From: Devosia sp. XK-2
GTDB taxonomy: Bacteria > Pseudomonadota > Alphaproteobacteria > Rhizobiales > Devosiaceae
Assembly: GCF_037113415.1 (NCBI RefSeq)
Contig: NZ_CP146608.1
Span: 516,501-580,500, forward strand
Reading direction: 5' to 3'
Length of the DNA stretch: 64,000 nt
The position numbers and the translations under genes were made by a program. This document shows, piece by piece, positions 29,752 to 35,357 of this stretch. The notes under the pieces were generated by a model. It had not been told where the DNA came from, did no database searches, and saw only the letters and a list, made by a program, of their open reading frames with translations. Numbering within the stretch: the stretch's first letter is position 1; each line of letters begins with the position of its first letter.

Positions 29752-30417
29752 ATGAAGTCGAAGGTTCTCGTCGCCCTTGCCGCGACCCTGGCGCTGAGCG
29801 CCTGCACCACCACCGATCCCTATACAGGCCAGAGCCGCCTCTCCAACACCGCTGGCGGTGGCCTGCTGGGTGCTGGCGGCGGTGCTGTTGCTGGCGCTAT
29901 TGTCGGTGCCGCCGTTGGTGGTGACCCGCGCGTTGGCGCGCTGATTGGCGCCGGTGTTGGTGGCCTGACCGGCGCGGCCATCGGCAATTACATGGACCAG
30001 CAGGAAGCCGAACTGCGCGCCCAGCTGCAGGGCACCGGTGTTTCGGTTACCCGCGTGGGCGATCAGATCATTCTCAACATGCCCTCCAACATCACCTTTG
30101 CGACCGATCAGTCGACCGTGCAGCCTCAGTTCAACCAGACCCTGGTTTCGGTTGCTCTCGTGCTCAAGAAGTTCGACAAGACGATCGTGGATGTCTATGG
30201 CCACACCGACAGCCAGGGCGACGACGCCTATAACCTGGCTCTCAGCCAGCGCCGCGCCGTTTCTGTCGCCACCATCCTGGCCAATCAGGGTATCGACCAG
30301 CGCCGCTTCTACATCGAAGGCAAGGGCGAAAGCTCTCCCATTGCCTCCAACGCCACCGAAGCCGGGCGCGCACAAAACCGCCGCGTGGAAATCCAGCTCT
30401 CCCCGATTCGCGGCTGA
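29752..30417 (+). CDS. OmpA-family outer-membrane lipoprotein
   Basis: 221 residues. A lipoprotein signal peptide ends at the lipobox LSAC (Cys17). A glycine-rich membrane-associating segment (about 35-80, YMD-type glycine-zipper) precedes a C-terminal OmpA peptidoglycan-binding domain with VYGHTDSQGDDAYN and LSQRRAVSVATIL and NRRVEIQL. It likely tethers outer membrane and cell wall. GGGGGAAG precedes ATG 29752; a strong terminator follows. Confidence 0.93.
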   Translation: MKSKVLVALAATLALSACTTTDPYTGQSRLSNTAGGGLLGAGGGAVAGAIVGAAVGGDPRVGALIGAGVGGLTGAAIGNYMDQQEAELRAQLQGTGVSVTRVGDQIILNMPSNITFATDQSTVQPQFNQTLVSVALVLKKFDKTIVDVYGHTDSQGDDAYNLALSQRRAVSVATILANQGIDQRRFYIEGKGESSPIASNATEAGRAQNRRVEIQLSPIRG

Positions 30418-30438
30418 TAGAGCTTCAAATCATGCCAG

Positions 30439-30470
30439 AGGCGCGATCTTCGGATCGCGCCTTTATTATT
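30439..30470 (+). terminator. Intrinsic terminator of the OmpA-like gene
   Basis: AGGCGCGATC and GATCGCGCCT form a perfect 10-base stem capped by a TTCG tetraloop, then TTATTATT. It also lies over the 3' end of the convergent small gene. Confidence 0.92.
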
Positions 30471-30759
30471 GCACTGGCGTCTCGATCACGGGGTCGGAGG
30501 TCGGTGTGCCCGGCTGCATATCGGTCCCCGGCGCGCCCGAGAAAACCTGCATGACCAGCAGGATGGCGATGATTATTGCCAGCGCGCCCAGACCATAGAG
30601 CCACCAATTGGTGGGCCCGGTCGAACCCACGGTCGGGTCGTGCTCACCGGCGACTTTGAGGCCAGATCCGTCCGGCACGTCCAGCTTGGCGGCGTTCTCA
30701 TCGACCAGATAGTCGACCTTGGCGACCTGTGGTGAGTGTTTTTCCTTGGCTTCGGCCAT
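30466..30759 (-). CDS. Small single-pass membrane protein
   Basis: 97 residues: a charged N-terminal half, one membrane helix (about residues 52-72, WWLYGLGALAIIIAILLVM) and a Pro/Thr-rich tail. Its start overlaps the stop of the gene at 31016 by one base (TGATG), so both are one operon. No domain recognised. Its setting beside a PRC-barrel gene suggests a stress role, but that is only context. Confidence 0.72.
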   Translation of the reverse strand: MAEAKEKHSPQVAKVDYLVDENAAKLDVPDGSGLKVAGEHDPTVGSTGPTNWWLYGLGALAIIIAILLVMQVFSGAPGTDMQPGTPTSDPVIETPVQ

Positions 30760-31016
30760 CAGTAATCTCCCTTCAATACGGTTTCTGTGCCCACGCCCTC
30801 TTCCACGCCCTCGCGCACTTCGGCGATGGCCTGGTCGATTTCCTCGGGCTCAAAGGCCACCGCGCCGCCCTCGACCGGCGCGCCGGTCGCTTCGGCTTTG
30901 AGCTGGTTGAGGAGCGCGATCTTCTCGCGCGCCGTAAATAGAGTGTGGTGGGCGATCTGCATGGGGTTGAGCTGGTCTTTGCCGCCCATGCGTTCCTTGA
31001 GGCTATCCAATATCAT
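30759..31016 (-). CDS. Small conserved-looking hypothetical protein
   Basis: 85 residues beginning MILDSLKERMGGKDQLNPMQ, acidic at the end, likely helical, soluble. ATG 31016 has GGGAGAG at good spacing; the frame is open further (to 31184) but without a start signal. Translation is coupled to the downstream small membrane protein. No known domain. Confidence 0.72.
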   Translation of the reverse strand: MILDSLKERMGGKDQLNPMQIAHHTLFTAREKIALLNQLKAEATGAPVEGGAVAFEPEEIDQAIAEVREGVEEGVGTETVLKGDY

Positions 31017-31140
31017 TGTTCTCTCCCGCGGTTTGTGTCGAACTCTATGGTTGTCCATAAGCTCAATGCCGTGGGATGCGCCTGGTTCCGGCGGCCGAAC
31101 GTCTGAAGGCGCCGCTCGCGCGATCACATTTTCCGTTTGC

Positions 31141-31166
31141 GGAAACCGGTCATGGATGCTCGCGTT
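31141..31166 (+). promoter_or_regulatory. Possible EcfG-type general-stress promoter
   Basis: GGAAA and CGTT are separated by 17 bases, one mismatch from the GGAAC/CGTT pattern of EcfG sigma factors, 32 bases before the PRC-barrel gene. Position and gene type are fitting but the -35 is imperfect. Confidence 0.35.
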
Positions 31167-31198
31167 CTGCCTCCACACCCCCAAATGAGGAGGATTAA

Positions 31199-31588
31199 AT
31201 GGCCTATGATGACAAACGCGTCGCCACCGCGGACGTAAAAGAAACCCATGACCTGATCGCTTCGGACAAGGTCGAGGGCACTAAGGTTTACGATCCGAAC
31301 GGCGAGCATATCGGCTCGATCGAGCGCATTCTGGTCGAGAAGCGCGGCGGCAAGGTGTCCTATGCCGTGCTGAGCTTCGGTGGTTTTCTGGGCATTGGAC
31401 ATGACCACTATCCTTTGCCCTGGTCCAAGCTCGATTATGACGAAAATCTCGGCGGCTACCGCGTCGATATCACCAGGGAACAGCTCGAAGGCGCCCCGCA
31501 TTACGAAAGCGACGACGACAATTTCTGGACGGCCGAGAATGGGCGTCGCGTCCATGACTATTATGGCGTGACCCCATATTGGATCTGA
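31199..31588 (+). CDS. PRC-barrel domain protein
   Basis: 129 residues. A PRC-barrel (about 22-95) is shown by VEGTKVYDPNGEHIGSIERI and GFLGIGHDHYPLPWSKL. The tail is rich in acidic and aromatic residues. Such small soluble proteins are common members of the general stress response in this order. GAGGAGG lies right before the ATG. Divergent from the two small genes at 30466-31016. Confidence 0.88.
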   Translation: MAYDDKRVATADVKETHDLIASDKVEGTKVYDPNGEHIGSIERILVEKRGGKVSYAVLSFGGFLGIGHDHYPLPWSKLDYDENLGGYRVDITREQLEGAPHYESDDDNFWTAENGRRVHDYYGVTPYWI

Positions 31589-31625
31589 TCCAGGCCAGGC
31601 TTTTCAATGACCAAATGATTGCAAG

Positions 31626-31665
31626 GGCCGACGCCGGCTTTACGGCGCCGGTCTTTTTTGCGTTC
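31626..31665 (+). terminator. Terminator after the PRC-barrel gene
   Basis: GCCGACGCCG and CGGCGCCGGT pair with one mismatch and are followed by a run of six T. A further GTTCAC/GTGAAC inverted repeat follows directly (31661-31678). Confidence 0.7.
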
Positions 31666-31681
31666 ACGAGCGCGTGAACAT

Positions 31682-31706
31682 GTAACGCCTTCGGGCCGGC
31701 GACGAA
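31682..31706 (+). promoter_or_regulatory. Candidate ECF sigma promoter of the bufferin operon
   Basis: GTAAC and CGAA are spaced by exactly 16 bases, 48 bases before the bufA start. From memory this is the GTAAC-N16-CGAA pattern reported for SigF of Caulobacter, an ECF factor answering metal stress that controls DUF2282/DUF692 operons. No better promoter is visible in the gap. Confidence 0.6.
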
Positions 31707-31718
31707 TGTCCTCGTGTT

Positions 31719-31735
31719 GGAACCGCAAAGGTTCC
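31719..31735. promoter_or_regulatory. Inverted repeat in the bufA leader
   Basis: GGAACC and GGTTCC with a GCAAA centre lie between the candidate promoter and the ribosome binding site (AGAGGAG). It could be a leader hairpin that affects translation or stability, or an operator. Confidence 0.4.
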
Positions 31736-31753
31736 CCACCAGAGGAGAATCCA

Positions 31754-32062
31754 ATGAACCGCCTGACCACTTTCGCTCTCGCCGCTTCGCTCAGCGCTGC
31801 ACTCGGCGGCACCGCAATCGCTCAGGATGCGATGGGCGGCGATGCCATGGCAGCAACCGAGAAATGCTATGGCGTGGCCCTGGCCGGTGCCAATGATTGC
31901 GCCGCGGGCCCCGGCACCACCTGCGCCGGCACATCCACCATCGACTATCAGGGCAATGCCTGGAAGGCTGTGCCTGCAGGCACTTGTGAAACCATGATGA
32001 TCGAAGGCGACCGCATGGGTTCGCTCGAGCCGCTCGATCGCGATCTCCCCATGGCAAGCTGA
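31754..32062 (+). CDS. bufA: Bufferin precursor BufA1 (DUF2282)
   Basis: 102 residues. A Sec signal peptide (cleavage after AIAQ, residue 24) is followed by a mature part with the four conserved cysteines 38, 49, 57 and 78 ([29 protein letters not shown]). DUF2282 proteins are precursors of bufferins, copper-binding peptides whose cysteines are modified in the cytosol by a DUF692 enzyme before export to the periplasm. The downstream genes encode that enzyme and its partner. AGAGGAG precedes the ATG. A hairpin follows the stop, which would favour precursor over enzyme. Confidence 0.9.
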
Positions 32063-32073
32063 CCGCTTCAATA

Positions 32074-32095
32074 CGGGAGGCTTGCGAGCCTCCCG
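32074..32095 (+). terminator. Intercistronic hairpin between bufA and bufB
   Basis: CGGGAGGCT and AGCCTCCCG form a perfect 9-base stem with a TGCG loop and no T tract, 12 bases after the bufA stop. It likely slows or partly stops polymerase or protects the bufA message. Confidence 0.7.
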
Positions 32096-32119
32096 CCTTG
32101 CATTTCAAGGGAGGTTCCA

Positions 32120-32977
32120 ATGCCGTTCGATAGTTTGCCGGCCCGCCCCGGCCTGGGCCTGAAATCCCAGCACTACACGCAGATCATTGCCGAAAAGCCT
32201 GACCTTGGCTTTTTCGAGGTTCACGCTGAGAACTATATGGGCGACGGCGGCCCGCCGCATCGTTACCTGACCGCCATTTGCGAGCATTATCCATTGTCGC
32301 TTCACGGCGTTGGCCTGTCCATCGGTGGGGAGGGCCCGCTCGATCGTGCCCATCTTGACCGTCTGAGAGTGCTGGTCGATCGCTATGCCCCCGCCTCGTT
32401 TTCGGAGCATTTGGCCTGGTCCAGCCACGACGAAGGCTATCTCAACGATCTCCTGCCGGTCCCCTATACGTCCCGGACGCTGGATCGCGTCGTCGCCCAT
32501 GTCGAAGAGGTGCAACAGGCTTTGGGGCGGCGCATGCTGCTGGAAAATCCCTCAACCTATGTGCTCTTTGCGGAGAGTACGATCGACGAAGTCGACTTCC
32601 TCGACGCCATCGCCACCCGCACCGGCTGCGGCCTGCTGCTCGACGTCAACAATGTCATGGTCTCGGCGGTCAACCACCGGCTGGATCCGGTGCGCTATAT
32701 TGACCGCTTTCCCATCCACCATGTCGGCGAAATTCATCTCGCCGGCTATGATGAAACCACTGACGATGCTGGCGAACGTCTATTGATCGATGCCCATGGC
32801 AGCCGCGTCCGCCCCGATGTGTTCGAACTTTACCGCCATACGATCTCTCGCACCGGCCCGCTGCCGACATTGATTGAATGGGACAATGATGTCCCCACCT
32901 TCGATGTGCTGATGGACGAGGTGCGGCTGGTCGACGAAGTGCTCGATGGCACCCTGGCGCAAAGGCTCGCGTCGTGA
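32120..32977 (+). CDS. bufB: MNIO-family bufferin maturase BufB (DUF692)
   Basis: 285 residues of the multinuclear non-heme iron oxidase family, a TIM-barrel enzyme that converts precursor cysteines to heterocycles. The metal-ligand motifs are all present: EVHAENYM, SLHGVGLSIGG, SEHLAW, LENPSTY, DVNNVMVSAVNH, GEIHLAGY, IDAHGSRV and IEWDNDVP. GGGAGG precedes the ATG. The stop overlaps the GTG of bufC, so the two are made together. Confidence 0.95.
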   Translation: MPFDSLPARPGLGLKSQHYTQIIAEKPDLGFFEVHAENYMGDGGPPHRYLTAICEHYPLSLHGVGLSIGGEGPLDRAHLDRLRVLVDRYAPASFSEHLAWSSHDEGYLNDLLPVPYTSRTLDRVVAHVEEVQQALGRRMLLENPSTYVLFAESTIDEVDFLDAIATRTGCGLLLDVNNVMVSAVNHRLDPVRYIDRFPIHHVGEIHLAGYDETTDDAGERLLIDAHGSRVRPDVFELYRHTISRTGPLPTLIEWDNDVPTFDVLMDEVRLVDEVLDGTLAQRLAS

Positions 32978-33732
32978 CCAGCCAGAGCCAGTTCACCAGC
33001 GCCCTGACGAACCCGGCTGAGCCCGTGCCATCCGGTCTGGTATCGCCACGCGGTACCACCGACGCAAAGCGCTTTGCCGTCTATCGCAACAATGTTCACG
33101 TGAGCCTGACCGGCGCCATTGCCGCCCGTTTCCCGGTTGTGCGGCAAGTGGTCGGCGAAACATTCTTCGCGGGCATGGCGCGGGTCTATGTGGGGCAGAA
33201 CAAGCCGAAAAGTCCCATCCTGCTACACTACGGTGATAGCTTTGCTGAATTCATCGCCAGCTTTCCGCCTGCCTCGAGCCTGCCATACCTGCCAGACCTG
33301 GCGCGGTTGGAGGCAGCCTGGTCGGACGTCTACAATGCCGCTGATGCTGCTACCCTTGCACCCGCCGATTTGGGGCGTATTGATGCCGCCGCGCTGGGAG
33401 CTTTGACCCTGGTCCTGGCGCCGGCGTCTCGCAGCGTCCGTTCCCGCTACCCGGTTGGATCGATCTGGTCCGCTCACCAATCGTCGCCAGCCAATATCCC
33501 CTCAATCTCGGGTGGGGAATGCGTGCTGCTGACCCGCCCGCAGGCGGAGGTTCGCGTCACCGTCATTCCCGCTTCCGCCGCCGCGTTTCTCTCGGCGCTG
33601 TCTGAGGGCAACAGCCTTGCATCGGCCTCGGAGGCCGCAATAGCCGGTTTTCCCGATTTCGATCCTGGCGCCGCACTGGTGGGGTTGGCCGGCCTCGGGG
33701 CCTTTGCGGCCATCAACGGAGCTTTGACATGA
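32974..33732 (+). CDS. bufC: BufC-like partner protein (DUF2063)
   Basis: 252 residues. The N-terminal DUF2063 domain (about 5-110) is seen in FAVYRNNVHVSLTGAIAARFPV, and a C-terminal domain of about 100 residues follows, ending in GFPDFDPGAALVGLAGLGAF. DUF2063 proteins bind the precursor leader and bring it to the MNIO enzyme. It begins with GTG overlapping the bufB stop and ends in an ATGA overlap with the next gene. Confidence 0.9.
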   Translation: MTSQSQFTSALTNPAEPVPSGLVSPRGTTDAKRFAVYRNNVHVSLTGAIAARFPVVRQVVGETFFAGMARVYVGQNKPKSPILLHYGDSFAEFIASFPPASSLPYLPDLARLEAAWSDVYNAADAATLAPADLGRIDAAALGALTLVLAPASRSVRSRYPVGSIWSAHQSSPANIPSISGGECVLLTRPQAEVRVTVIPASAAAFLSALSEGNSLASASEAAIAGFPDFDPGAALVGLAGLGAFAAINGALT

Positions 33733-34232
33733 TTATCGATCGTCTTCATGGCTTTTGGCAGCGGCTCGACACAGGCTTGGGCAGCGTGCCCTCGGCGCTG
33801 CCCCTGCTCGCGCTGCGTGTCGCTCTGGCCATCCCGTTCTGGCGTTCGGGTCTGACCAAATGGGACGGGTTTTTCAACCTGTCGACCGGCGCGCGCTACC
33901 TGTTCGAGCAGGAGTTTCGCTTGCACATTCTTGGCCAGGCCTTTCCCTATCCGGCGCCGCTGGCCATGGCATTCCTGGCCGGAATAGGGGAGCTCGTTCT
34001 GCCTGTGCTGCTCGTTCTCGGTCTCGGCACGCGCCTGGCCGCGCTCGGCATTATCGGCATGACCATCATCATCCAGCTCACCGTGCCCGATGGCCTGGTC
34101 AATTTTCATCTGCCCTGGTTCGCCATGGCACTGGCACTGCTGGTCTATGGCGGGGGAACGCTCTCGGCCGATCGGCTCTTGGGCGGTCTGGTCGGTGCGC
34201 GGCTCAAGGGGTCTGCGCACCCCGCGCCGTGA
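33729..34232 (+). CDS. DoxX-family membrane protein of the bufferin operon
   Basis: 167 residues with four membrane helices and the DoxX-type start ALRVALAIPFWRSGLTKWDGF. DoxX-like proteins commonly end DUF2282/DUF692 operons; the role is not defined and may be in the redox state or export of the modified peptide. Its ATG overlaps bufC and its last 29 bases overlap the convergent lactonase gene. Confidence 0.88.
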   Translation: MIIDRLHGFWQRLDTGLGSVPSALPLLALRVALAIPFWRSGLTKWDGFFNLSTGARYLFEQEFRLHILGQAFPYPAPLAMAFLAGIGELVLPVLLVLGLGTRLAALGIIGMTIIIQLTVPDGLVNFHLPWFAMALALLVYGGGTLSADRLLGGLVGARLKGSAHPAP

Positions 34233-35124
34233 CGTAAAGCGCATAAACAGAGGTCGTGGCGGTGATGAACAGCCGATTTCGCCGCGGCCCGCCAAATGTC
34301 AGGTTCGATACGCATTGCGGCACGCGGATCTTGCCACAGAGCTTGCCGGTTTCGTCGAAGATATGCACGCCATCGGCCGCCGAACACCAGAGCCAGCCTT
34401 CGCTATCGACTCTGAAGCCGTCCGGAACGCCGGCATCGATCACGGCAAACGGCCCCTCATCGCGCACGGACTGACCGTCATTTTCAACTGAAAAGGCTCG
34501 GATGTGCCGCGGCACATCCGGATTGTGGCTGGCGCCTGAATCGGCCACATAGAGGCGGCTTTCATCGGGCGAGAAGGCCAGTCCATTGGGCTGCACGAAA
34601 TCGCCGACCATCAGGCTGATCGCGCCGGTATCGCCATCAATGCGATAGACCCCACGGACAGGCTGCTCCGGCGGGGTCATATAGCCCTCATAATCCGAGA
34701 GGATGCCGTAGGTCGGATCGGTGAACCAGATCGACCGGTCCGATTTGACCACCACATCATTGGGCGAGTTGAGTTTTCTGCCCTCAAAACTGTCGGCGAG
34801 CACGGTGATCGATCCATCGATCTCCATGCGGGTCACCCGGCGCTCCCCATGCTCGCAGGAGATCAACCGGCCCTGGCCATCGCGCGTGTGACCATTGGCA
34901 AAGCCGGAGGGTTCGAGAAAGACGCTGACTGAATTGTCGCGCGGCAGATAGCGCAGCACCTGTTGGTTGGGAATGTCGGAAAAATAGAGGCAGTCATGGT
35001 CCGAGAACCAAACCGGCCCCTCGGTCCACCGGCACCCGGAATGAACCTCCTCCAGCCGCGCACTGCCAACGATCTTGTGCGCAAAACGCGGATCGATGAT
35101 TTCGTAAAGATCTTGTTCGGCCAT
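34204..35124 (-). CDS. SMP-30/gluconolactonase family protein
   Basis: 306 residues of the six-bladed beta-propeller family that opens sugar lactones. Visible are the metal ligand Glu in RWTEGPVWF, LNSPNDVVVKSDRSIWFTDPTYG, and QPNGLAFSPDESRLYVADSG. ATG 35124 has GGAGG at best spacing; a second ATG directly before it (35127) is possible. It is divergent from the LacI gene, so it probably belongs to the carbohydrate locus on its other side. Confidence 0.92.
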   Translation of the reverse strand: MAEQDLYEIIDPRFAHKIVGSARLEEVHSGCRWTEGPVWFSDHDCLYFSDIPNQQVLRYLPRDNSVSVFLEPSGFANGHTRDGQGRLISCEHGERRVTRMEIDGSITVLADSFEGRKLNSPNDVVVKSDRSIWFTDPTYGILSDYEGYMTPPEQPVRGVYRIDGDTGAISLMVGDFVQPNGLAFSPDESRLYVADSGASHNPDVPRHIRAFSVENDGQSVRDEGPFAVIDAGVPDGFRVDSEGWLWCSAADGVHIFDETGKLCGKIRVPQCVSNLTFGGPRRNRLFITATTSVYALYVTARGAQTP

Positions 35125-35357
35125 CATCCCCTCCAATGCGGTAAAAGGCATAGAGCGGACCGGGTCCGGCGACAAGACCATCGCGGGCAGCACCAGGCAG
35201 ATCGCGCCCGAGTGGTTTGGCCGGCGGTTGAAATTAGCGAAGAGCCCTAAATCCATGGTTGCCGTCAGTTTTGTCGCCAGCGCCTTCCACGCGGCCTCTG
35301 GCAGGCTTCGCGCCACCACCGGCCATGATAGGGCCGGCGATTGCGCCATGCGGTCGG

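Follow-up and report, generated by a model that had tools for sequence, protein, structure and literature searches.

A chromosomal bufferin-1 operon in Devosia sp. XK-2, its likely sigma-F-type promoter, and two hairpins flanking the precursor gene

How might an operon for a ribosomally synthesized and post-translationally modified peptide (RiPP) yield much peptide and little enzyme, and which stress would switch it on? The question is raised by four genes, bufA, bufB, bufC and doxX, at positions 31754–34232 of a 64,000-nucleotide stretch (hereafter, the window) of Devosia sp. XK-2 contig NZ_CP146608.1 (positions 516,501 to 580,500). A sequence-only reading had described this locus as a complete bufferin operon. 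Its coordinates are exact, the interval being filled by four plus-strand genes, and we estimate a probability near 0.88 that the locus is a complete chromosomal bufferin-1 operon of ordinary type in a Devosia-like soil bacterium.

The operon and its products

The published bufferin-1 core comprises a precursor, an enzyme of the multinuclear non-heme iron-dependent oxidative (MNIO) family, a DUF2063 protein and a DoxX protein, the last not being found in every operon (PMC12452194). All four core parts are present here, each above its Pfam cut-off, which identifies the locus as a bufferin operon and bears out the claim of completeness:

31754–32062, plus strand: bufA, bufferin-1 precursor (DUF2282); ATG start, 102 residues; PF10048, 86.3 bits (cut-off 22.4)
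32120–32977, plus strand: bufB, MNIO-family bufferin maturase; ATG start, 285 residues; NF050167, 385.6 bits (cut-off 310), and PF05114 (MbnB_TglH_ChrH), 349.4 bits (cut-off 25)
32974–33732, plus strand: bufC, DUF2063 partner protein; GTG start, 252 residues; PF09836, 86.2 bits (cut-off 27.2)
33729–34232, plus strand: doxX, DoxX-family protein without cysteine; ATG start, 167 residues; PF07681, 66.0 bits (cut-off 23.6)

The genes had been said to overlap or nearly touch. This is accurate for bufB/bufC and bufC/doxX, each pair sharing a 4-nucleotide (nt) overlap, but not for bufA and bufB, which are separated by 57 nt holding a hairpin. Among NCBIfam models, BufB passes the bufferin-maturase equivalog NF050167; BufC lies under the HvfC cut-off (63.2 of 142 bits) and DoxX under that of HvfX (56.5 of 80). 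A BufA2-type precursor was considered and rejected, the BufA2 model giving 17.5 of 60 bits, as expected for Buf1. The whole genome holds one MNIO match, one DUF2282 match, one NrsF match, and five DoxX-family matches.

The same arrangement recurs among relatives, defined as the best 80 BufB matches with fetched surrounding stretches, in which the bounds of bufA, bufC and doxX were set by script and left uncurated. The nearest named BufB relatives are those of Devosia ureilytica (89% identity) and D. marina (88%). At 73 of the 80 loci all four families lie on one strand; the order is plain at 61 of these, bufA is doubled at 8, and at 4 the listed order is shifted by long open frames. Two precursor genes occur at 9 loci, 8 of these with all other parts. 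BufB relatives are also found in 355 plasmid records, including 73 from Escherichia, 49 from Burkholderia and 18 from Klebsiella; of 12 plasmid stretches fetched, seven are annotated with the same four genes in order, one has no listed DUF692 gene, and four carry no annotation. Among the matches listed by a literature search joining Devosia with bufferin, DUF2282 and ECF16, none dealt with bufferins of Devosia.

BufA is a four-cysteine DUF2282 precursor, as the sequence-only reading had it. Its cysteines (Cys38, Cys49, Cys57 and Cys78) are each 99% conserved across 80 sequences, and its N-terminus appears, by eye, signal-peptide-like, with a basic start, a hydrophobic stretch and the sequence AIA-Q. 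A C-terminal tail was dropped as a family-wide signature because even a loose pattern fits just 15 of 79 sequences. In BufB, the positions at least 90% conserved (81 sequences, the window's own among them) include H62, E96-H97, E142-N143, D175, N177-N178, H206, D224, H226, E253 and D255. These positions presumably take in the motifs that MNIO metal sites should show. The claim that BufB carries every ligand motif holds to that extent, the residues being candidate iron ligands. Substitution of N175, D242 or H244 abolished the activity of HvfB (PMC13419390), and BufB N177, D224 and H226 may be the counterparts of these residues, if HvfB numbering equals that of PDB entry 3BWW plus one, an offset we infer. 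BufB matches 3BWW in sequence search (E 2.6e-46) and, more distantly, solved MbnB chains and a DUF692 chain of 8hci/8hi7; PDB sequence searches with BufA, BufC and DoxX returned no match. In Buf1 operons the DUF2063 partner also carries a C-terminal domain resembling a RiPP recognition element; in BufC such a domain is putative.

The fourth product is the most difficult to place. In the literature available in part we found no tested function for bufferin-linked DoxX, and HvfX is called uncharacterised (PMC13419390). Residues S40, E88, G98, R102, W130, G141, G143 and D148 are invariant in 36 aligned bufferin-linked copies. None is a cysteine, and 52 of 75 sequences have no cysteine at all; thiol exchange by DoxX's own cysteines is therefore unlikely as a family mechanism. 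It is tentatively possible that bufferin synthesis or loading requires DoxX, for example through enzyme redox balance or copper handling at the membrane. The eight invariant residues would fit such a role, as would the bufC–doxX overlap and the presence of a DoxX relative in 75 of the 80 stretches (in one case on the other strand; of the five stretches lacking it, two lie on short contigs), and DoxX has been raised as a possible copper-binding factor (PMC13097082). The lack of conserved cysteine counts against it, as does the reported modification of related peptides, with DoxX left out, both in vitro and in heterologous systems (PMC13097082). A still more doubtful proposal is that doxX is a stress passenger, related to quinone or sulfur and sharing regulation alone with its neighbors. 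DoxX does weakly match a phage family described as the quinone oxidoreductase TQO (E 1.5e-4), and protection from other stresses has been suggested (PMC12452194); against this stand the very tight linkage and the genome's four remaining DoxX-family members, of which two give a weak match to the profile of the bufferin type and two give none. With low confidence, we consider an accessory role in membrane copper or redox handling slightly likelier than a passenger role.

The predicted promoter and regulon

A candidate switch lies upstream of bufA:

31681–31707, plus strand: predicted sigma-F/ECF16-type promoter, TGTAAC-N16-CGAAT; exact pattern, matching the published consensus, downstream of a terminator-like hairpin

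The consensus is GTAACC-N16-CGAA for Caulobacter sigma-F (PMC3511200) and (T/C)GTAAC-N17-CGAA for ECF16, a group of extracytoplasmic function (ECF) sigma factors (PMC8315932). Sigma-F/ECF16 control of bufA is probable. The 3.8-Mb genome contains four exact sites and one of the reversed pattern. Behind them lie bufA, a sigF–nrsF pair, and two genes whose products each score 166.3 bits for the SelR domain, one of them with a secretion-signal-like start; we take these two to be methionine sulfoxide reductase (Msr) genes, msrB. The three sites outside the operon, before sigF–nrsF and the two msrB, are at G000:C1:2628230, 2854789 and 3116008 (L068, L069 and L070). The sigma gene, encoding Sigma70_r2 and r4_2 domains and followed by nrsF, lies some 2.1 Mb beyond the operon on the same contig; a cytochrome b561 family gene (77.5 bits) is divergent to sigF. 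The genome's one NrsF/DUF1109 anti-sigma factor (168 bits) has Cys129 and Cys179, two positions whose importance has been demonstrated for OsrA of B. japonicum (PMC3420878).

The box and the anti-sigma factor occur together across genomes. Of 36 DUF2282 matches in an order-wide sample, 30 were fetched and examined for the box: 16 bufA loci have both the box and nrsF in the genome, none has the box only, one has nrsF only, and 13 have neither (Fisher test, 1e-7, a value inflated by kinship). Outside the genus that dominates this sample, and taking one locus per family (15 families), the box is present in both genomes with nrsF and absent in all 13 others; within the genus, nrsF is found in 14 of 14 genomes with bufA versus 16 of 23 without (p 0.03). 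One Devosia genome (G011) has two DUF2282 precursors (L011 and L031), of which L031 adjoins nrsF (L062) and lacks the exact box. Among 79 loci recovered by the BufB search, the box is exact at 32, including all of the 15 closest, and the reversed pattern at none. It lies on the opposite strand upstream of bufA at 11 of the 79, cases that we assume to be divergent promoters.

The genes behind the sites are also informative. Five relatives possess both nrsF and bufA; of their 19 exact sites, 14 lie before bufA (4), sigF (5) or a secreted-looking msrB (5), and the other five include a divergent site beside sigF; in three relatives without nrsF, none of seven exact sites precedes any of these. Genome-wide box counts by themselves were rejected as evidence, being near the reversed-pattern control in relatives, and for this reason the regulon argument rests on the genes behind the sites. 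The exact pattern at the second msrB was seen in the window's own genome alone among the related genomes compared. An identical exact box is shared by two Devosia genomes (L156 and L160, in G005 and G011) and lies beside none of the genes tested.

Several observations weigh against this picture of a sigma-F stress regulon. Fourteen of the 16 loci combining box and nrsF belong to one genus. The exact box is missing at 47 of the 79 loci, and therefore sigma-F control is not universal and other regulation must be common. The reversed pattern occurs 10 times against 19 for the box in the five relatives, and box counts over 75 genomes of the genus resemble the control. Further, at sigF and the second msrB the box lies ahead of the gene only on our assumption that translation begins at a later methionine; otherwise both frames would span it. 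With respect to the stress itself, deletion of Caulobacter sigF or of the two MNIO genes is reported not to have raised chromate or cadmium sensitivity (PMC3511200), and S. meliloti rpoE7 and its target are described as uninduced by H2O2, cadmium or chromate (PMC6180224).

The composition of the regulon invites a different view of the operon's purpose: that it serves mainly in defence against oxidants such as hypochlorite or peroxide, copper binding being secondary or guarding envelope methionine from copper-driven oxidation. The sigma factor is apparently common to the operon and the two msrB genes, and Msr genes recur in ECF16 regulons (PMC8315932, PMC3420878). In H. influenzae, both msrAB and a DoxX/COG3220/DUF2063 cluster are under the control of RpoE2, which has been linked to the response to hypochlorite (PMC7907618). 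However, oxidant defence and copper binding are compatible with each other, and we regard a mainly oxidant-directed operon as possible but on the whole improbable.

Two hairpins around bufA

Two RNA features flank the precursor gene:

31719–31735, plus strand: stem-loop GGAACC-GCAAA-GGTTCC, found by folding, close to where the bufA transcript is predicted to begin
32074–32095, plus strand: 9-bp hairpin between bufA and bufB, terminator-like in a terminator scan; fold z −2.6; its tail, CCTTGCATTT, is a weak T-tract

Stems at the 5′ end of an mRNA can shield the message from decay. The mapped start of B. japonicum ecfF lies 6 bp past the −10 box (PMC3420878), a spacing that would place the bufA stem within a few nucleotides of the predicted 5′ end. 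Conservation of the stem was assessed in a leader set narrowed from 110 loci to 104 with an anchored bufA, 45 boxed leaders, and 44 distinct ones (the boxes of L021 and L026, found with another anchor, are not among the 44); both the cut between short and long leaders (192 nt) and the stem criterion were chosen once folds had been viewed. In the 30 distinct short-leader boxed operons, the stem-loop begins 8–13 nt past CGAA. Of these, 16 have a perfect stem (6 bp or longer), versus 0.5 expected from shuffles and 1.2 from random windows drawn from those loci; with one defect allowed, the count is 24, versus 1.4 and 2.7. The 16 perfect stems represent twelve different stem sequences, which suggests that pairing rather than sequence is kept: GGAACC/GGTTCC is found in five Devosia leaders, ACGAGGCC/GGCCTCGT in L084, and GTAGGCGC/GCGCCTGC in L110. 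Nine boxed plasmid leaders, from the 12 stretches fetched and close kin of the rhizobia of the first set, served as a check and gave no perfect stem and eight with one defect. The stem-loop is absent from all 14 leaders that follow an exact site before sigF or msrB, several of these leaders being near-duplicates. In some Devosia leaders an outer helix pairs the Shine–Dalgarno stretch; by eye, rhizobial leaders have none. A search of positions 31500–34400 against Rfam 15 gave two matches up to E 1, both within doxX and far below the gathering score.

The second hairpin is also widespread. Among 67 bufA–bufB gaps of 35–150 nt (the window's included; 13 loci with other gap lengths were left out), 45 hold a stem of at least 9 bp, versus 2.9 expected from shuffles and 5.0 from random windows. 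Of 54 stems of at least 7 bp, three are directly trailed by five T in 8 nt, five—the window's own among them—meet the looser T rule of the terminator scan, and two have TTTT within 10 nt. Most of these stems are therefore not standard terminators, and their likely effect is processing, protection, or a partial termination favoring a bufA-only message.

Taken together, these features may represent a two-hairpin RNA layout of ECF16-driven bufferin operons, with a 5′ stem-loop kept in structure and a post-bufA hairpin mostly without a T-run. Such a layout would give a plentiful, stable message for the peptide and a scarce one for the enzyme, and would thereby set the ratio of substrate to enzyme in a combined copper and methionine-oxidation response, a proposal to which we give even odds. 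That the hairpins have no special role, the first being an accident of GC-rich leaders and the second a weak terminator, would suit the post hoc framing of the stem-loop test, the near-chance counts at long-leader boxed bufA loci (0 of 14 perfect and 3 of 14 with one defect; 0.9–1.2 expected) and the terminator-like score of the window's own second hairpin in a loose scan, but sits so poorly with the excess of perfect stems in short leaders and the rarity of T-runs behind bufA–bufB stems that we consider it quite unlikely.

The surroundings of the operon are as follows:

29752–31588: upstream neighbors, an OmpA/glycine-zipper gene and then a PRC-barrel gene (31199–31588)
31633–31662, plus strand: terminator-like hairpin and T-run (stem-loop 31633–31652), from the terminator scan, between the PRC-barrel gene and the operon
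34204–35349, minus strand: SGL/gluconolactonase-like gene, convergent with doxX and overlapping it by 29 nt

The fold of 31610–31680, spanning the upstream hairpin, has z −4.1; the scan returned four terminator-like sites over the window versus 3.1 expected by chance. A broken or partial operon was rejected given the four intact frames, the terminator-like hairpin upstream, and the convergent gene downstream.

Proposed mechanism and known systems

The RiPP pathway of the sequence-only reading is supported by family membership, whereas the modified cysteines and the copper function, like export and the action of sigma-F, are carried over by analogy with published systems. In published Buf1 the central cysteines are modified and the first and last form a disulphide (PMC12452194), so that modification of BufA would be expected at Cys49 and Cys57 only. 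Following this analogy, oxidative or metal stress would act on the membrane anti-sigma factor NrsF, and the freed sigma-F would start transcription at 31681–31707. The resulting mRNA would begin with the stem-loop and carry the second hairpin after bufA, and given the two hairpins the bufA message would probably exceed that of the enzyme in abundance or lifetime. BufB, acting with BufC in the cytosol, would oxidise Cys49 and Cys57 of BufA to thiooxazoles; the peptide would be exported by Sec; and in the periplasm a Cys38–Cys78 disulphide would form and the thiooxazoles would hold excess copper. DoxX would be a tightly linked membrane partner.

The closest described systems compare with the present one as follows. 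Caulobacter vibrioides/crescentus CC3254–CC3257 has the same four families in the same order behind the same promoter type, and sigma-F acts there also on CC2907–CC2905, an operon away from sigF (CC3253) by gene numbers (PMC3511200). Here, in contrast, there is one operon, with doxX, and sigF–nrsF is distant from it; the predicted regulon contains two msrB, whereas in Caulobacter msrA homologs are reported as unchanged and yedY (CC2748) is included (PMC3511200). In S. meliloti SMb20530–SMb20527, as here, DUF692 and DUF2063 genes lie behind TGTAAC...CGAATG and are activated by an ECF16 factor, RpoE7 (PMC6180224). The first gene likewise encodes a DUF2282 protein (80.0 bits), and a 6-bp stem fits the same place in the leader, though its fold is weak (z −0.96); unlike here, rpoE7–ecfR7 is divergent and adjacent to the operon. 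The captophorins (HvfABCX, fontiphorin, gonophorin) share an MNIO enzyme with a DUF2063 or RiPP recognition element partner and, where present, DoxX (PMC13097082, PMC13419390). They carry thiooxazoles and bind copper (PMC13097082, PMC13419390), a likeness that would extend to BufA by analogy. Their precursors consist of EGKCG repeats, unlike the DUF2282 protein here, but inclusion of DUF2282 products in the captophorin class has been proposed (PMC13097082). Methanobactin (MbnABC) and pearlin (TglAHI) share the MNIO enzyme superfamily, but their partner proteins are different and their precursors lack a Sec signal peptide (PMC12452194).

The operon is thus one more case of a large known family, correctly recognized and ordinary. 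Its regulation is of a published type, sigma-F/ECF16 control of such operons being known in Caulobacter and S. meliloti (PMC3511200, PMC6180224), and the link to Msr is known both for ECF16 (PMC3420878, PMC8315932) and for H. influenzae RpoE2 (PMC7907618). What the locus adds is a likely switch, the sigma-F-type promoter, and two conserved RNA hairpins flanking bufA. One stress sigma factor, encoded far from its target, seems to drive both a copper-buffering peptide and methionine-repair enzymes. The invariant residues of DoxX, none of them cysteine, narrow its possible functions. And the paired hairpins suggest a specific way in which such an operon might yield much peptide and little enzyme.

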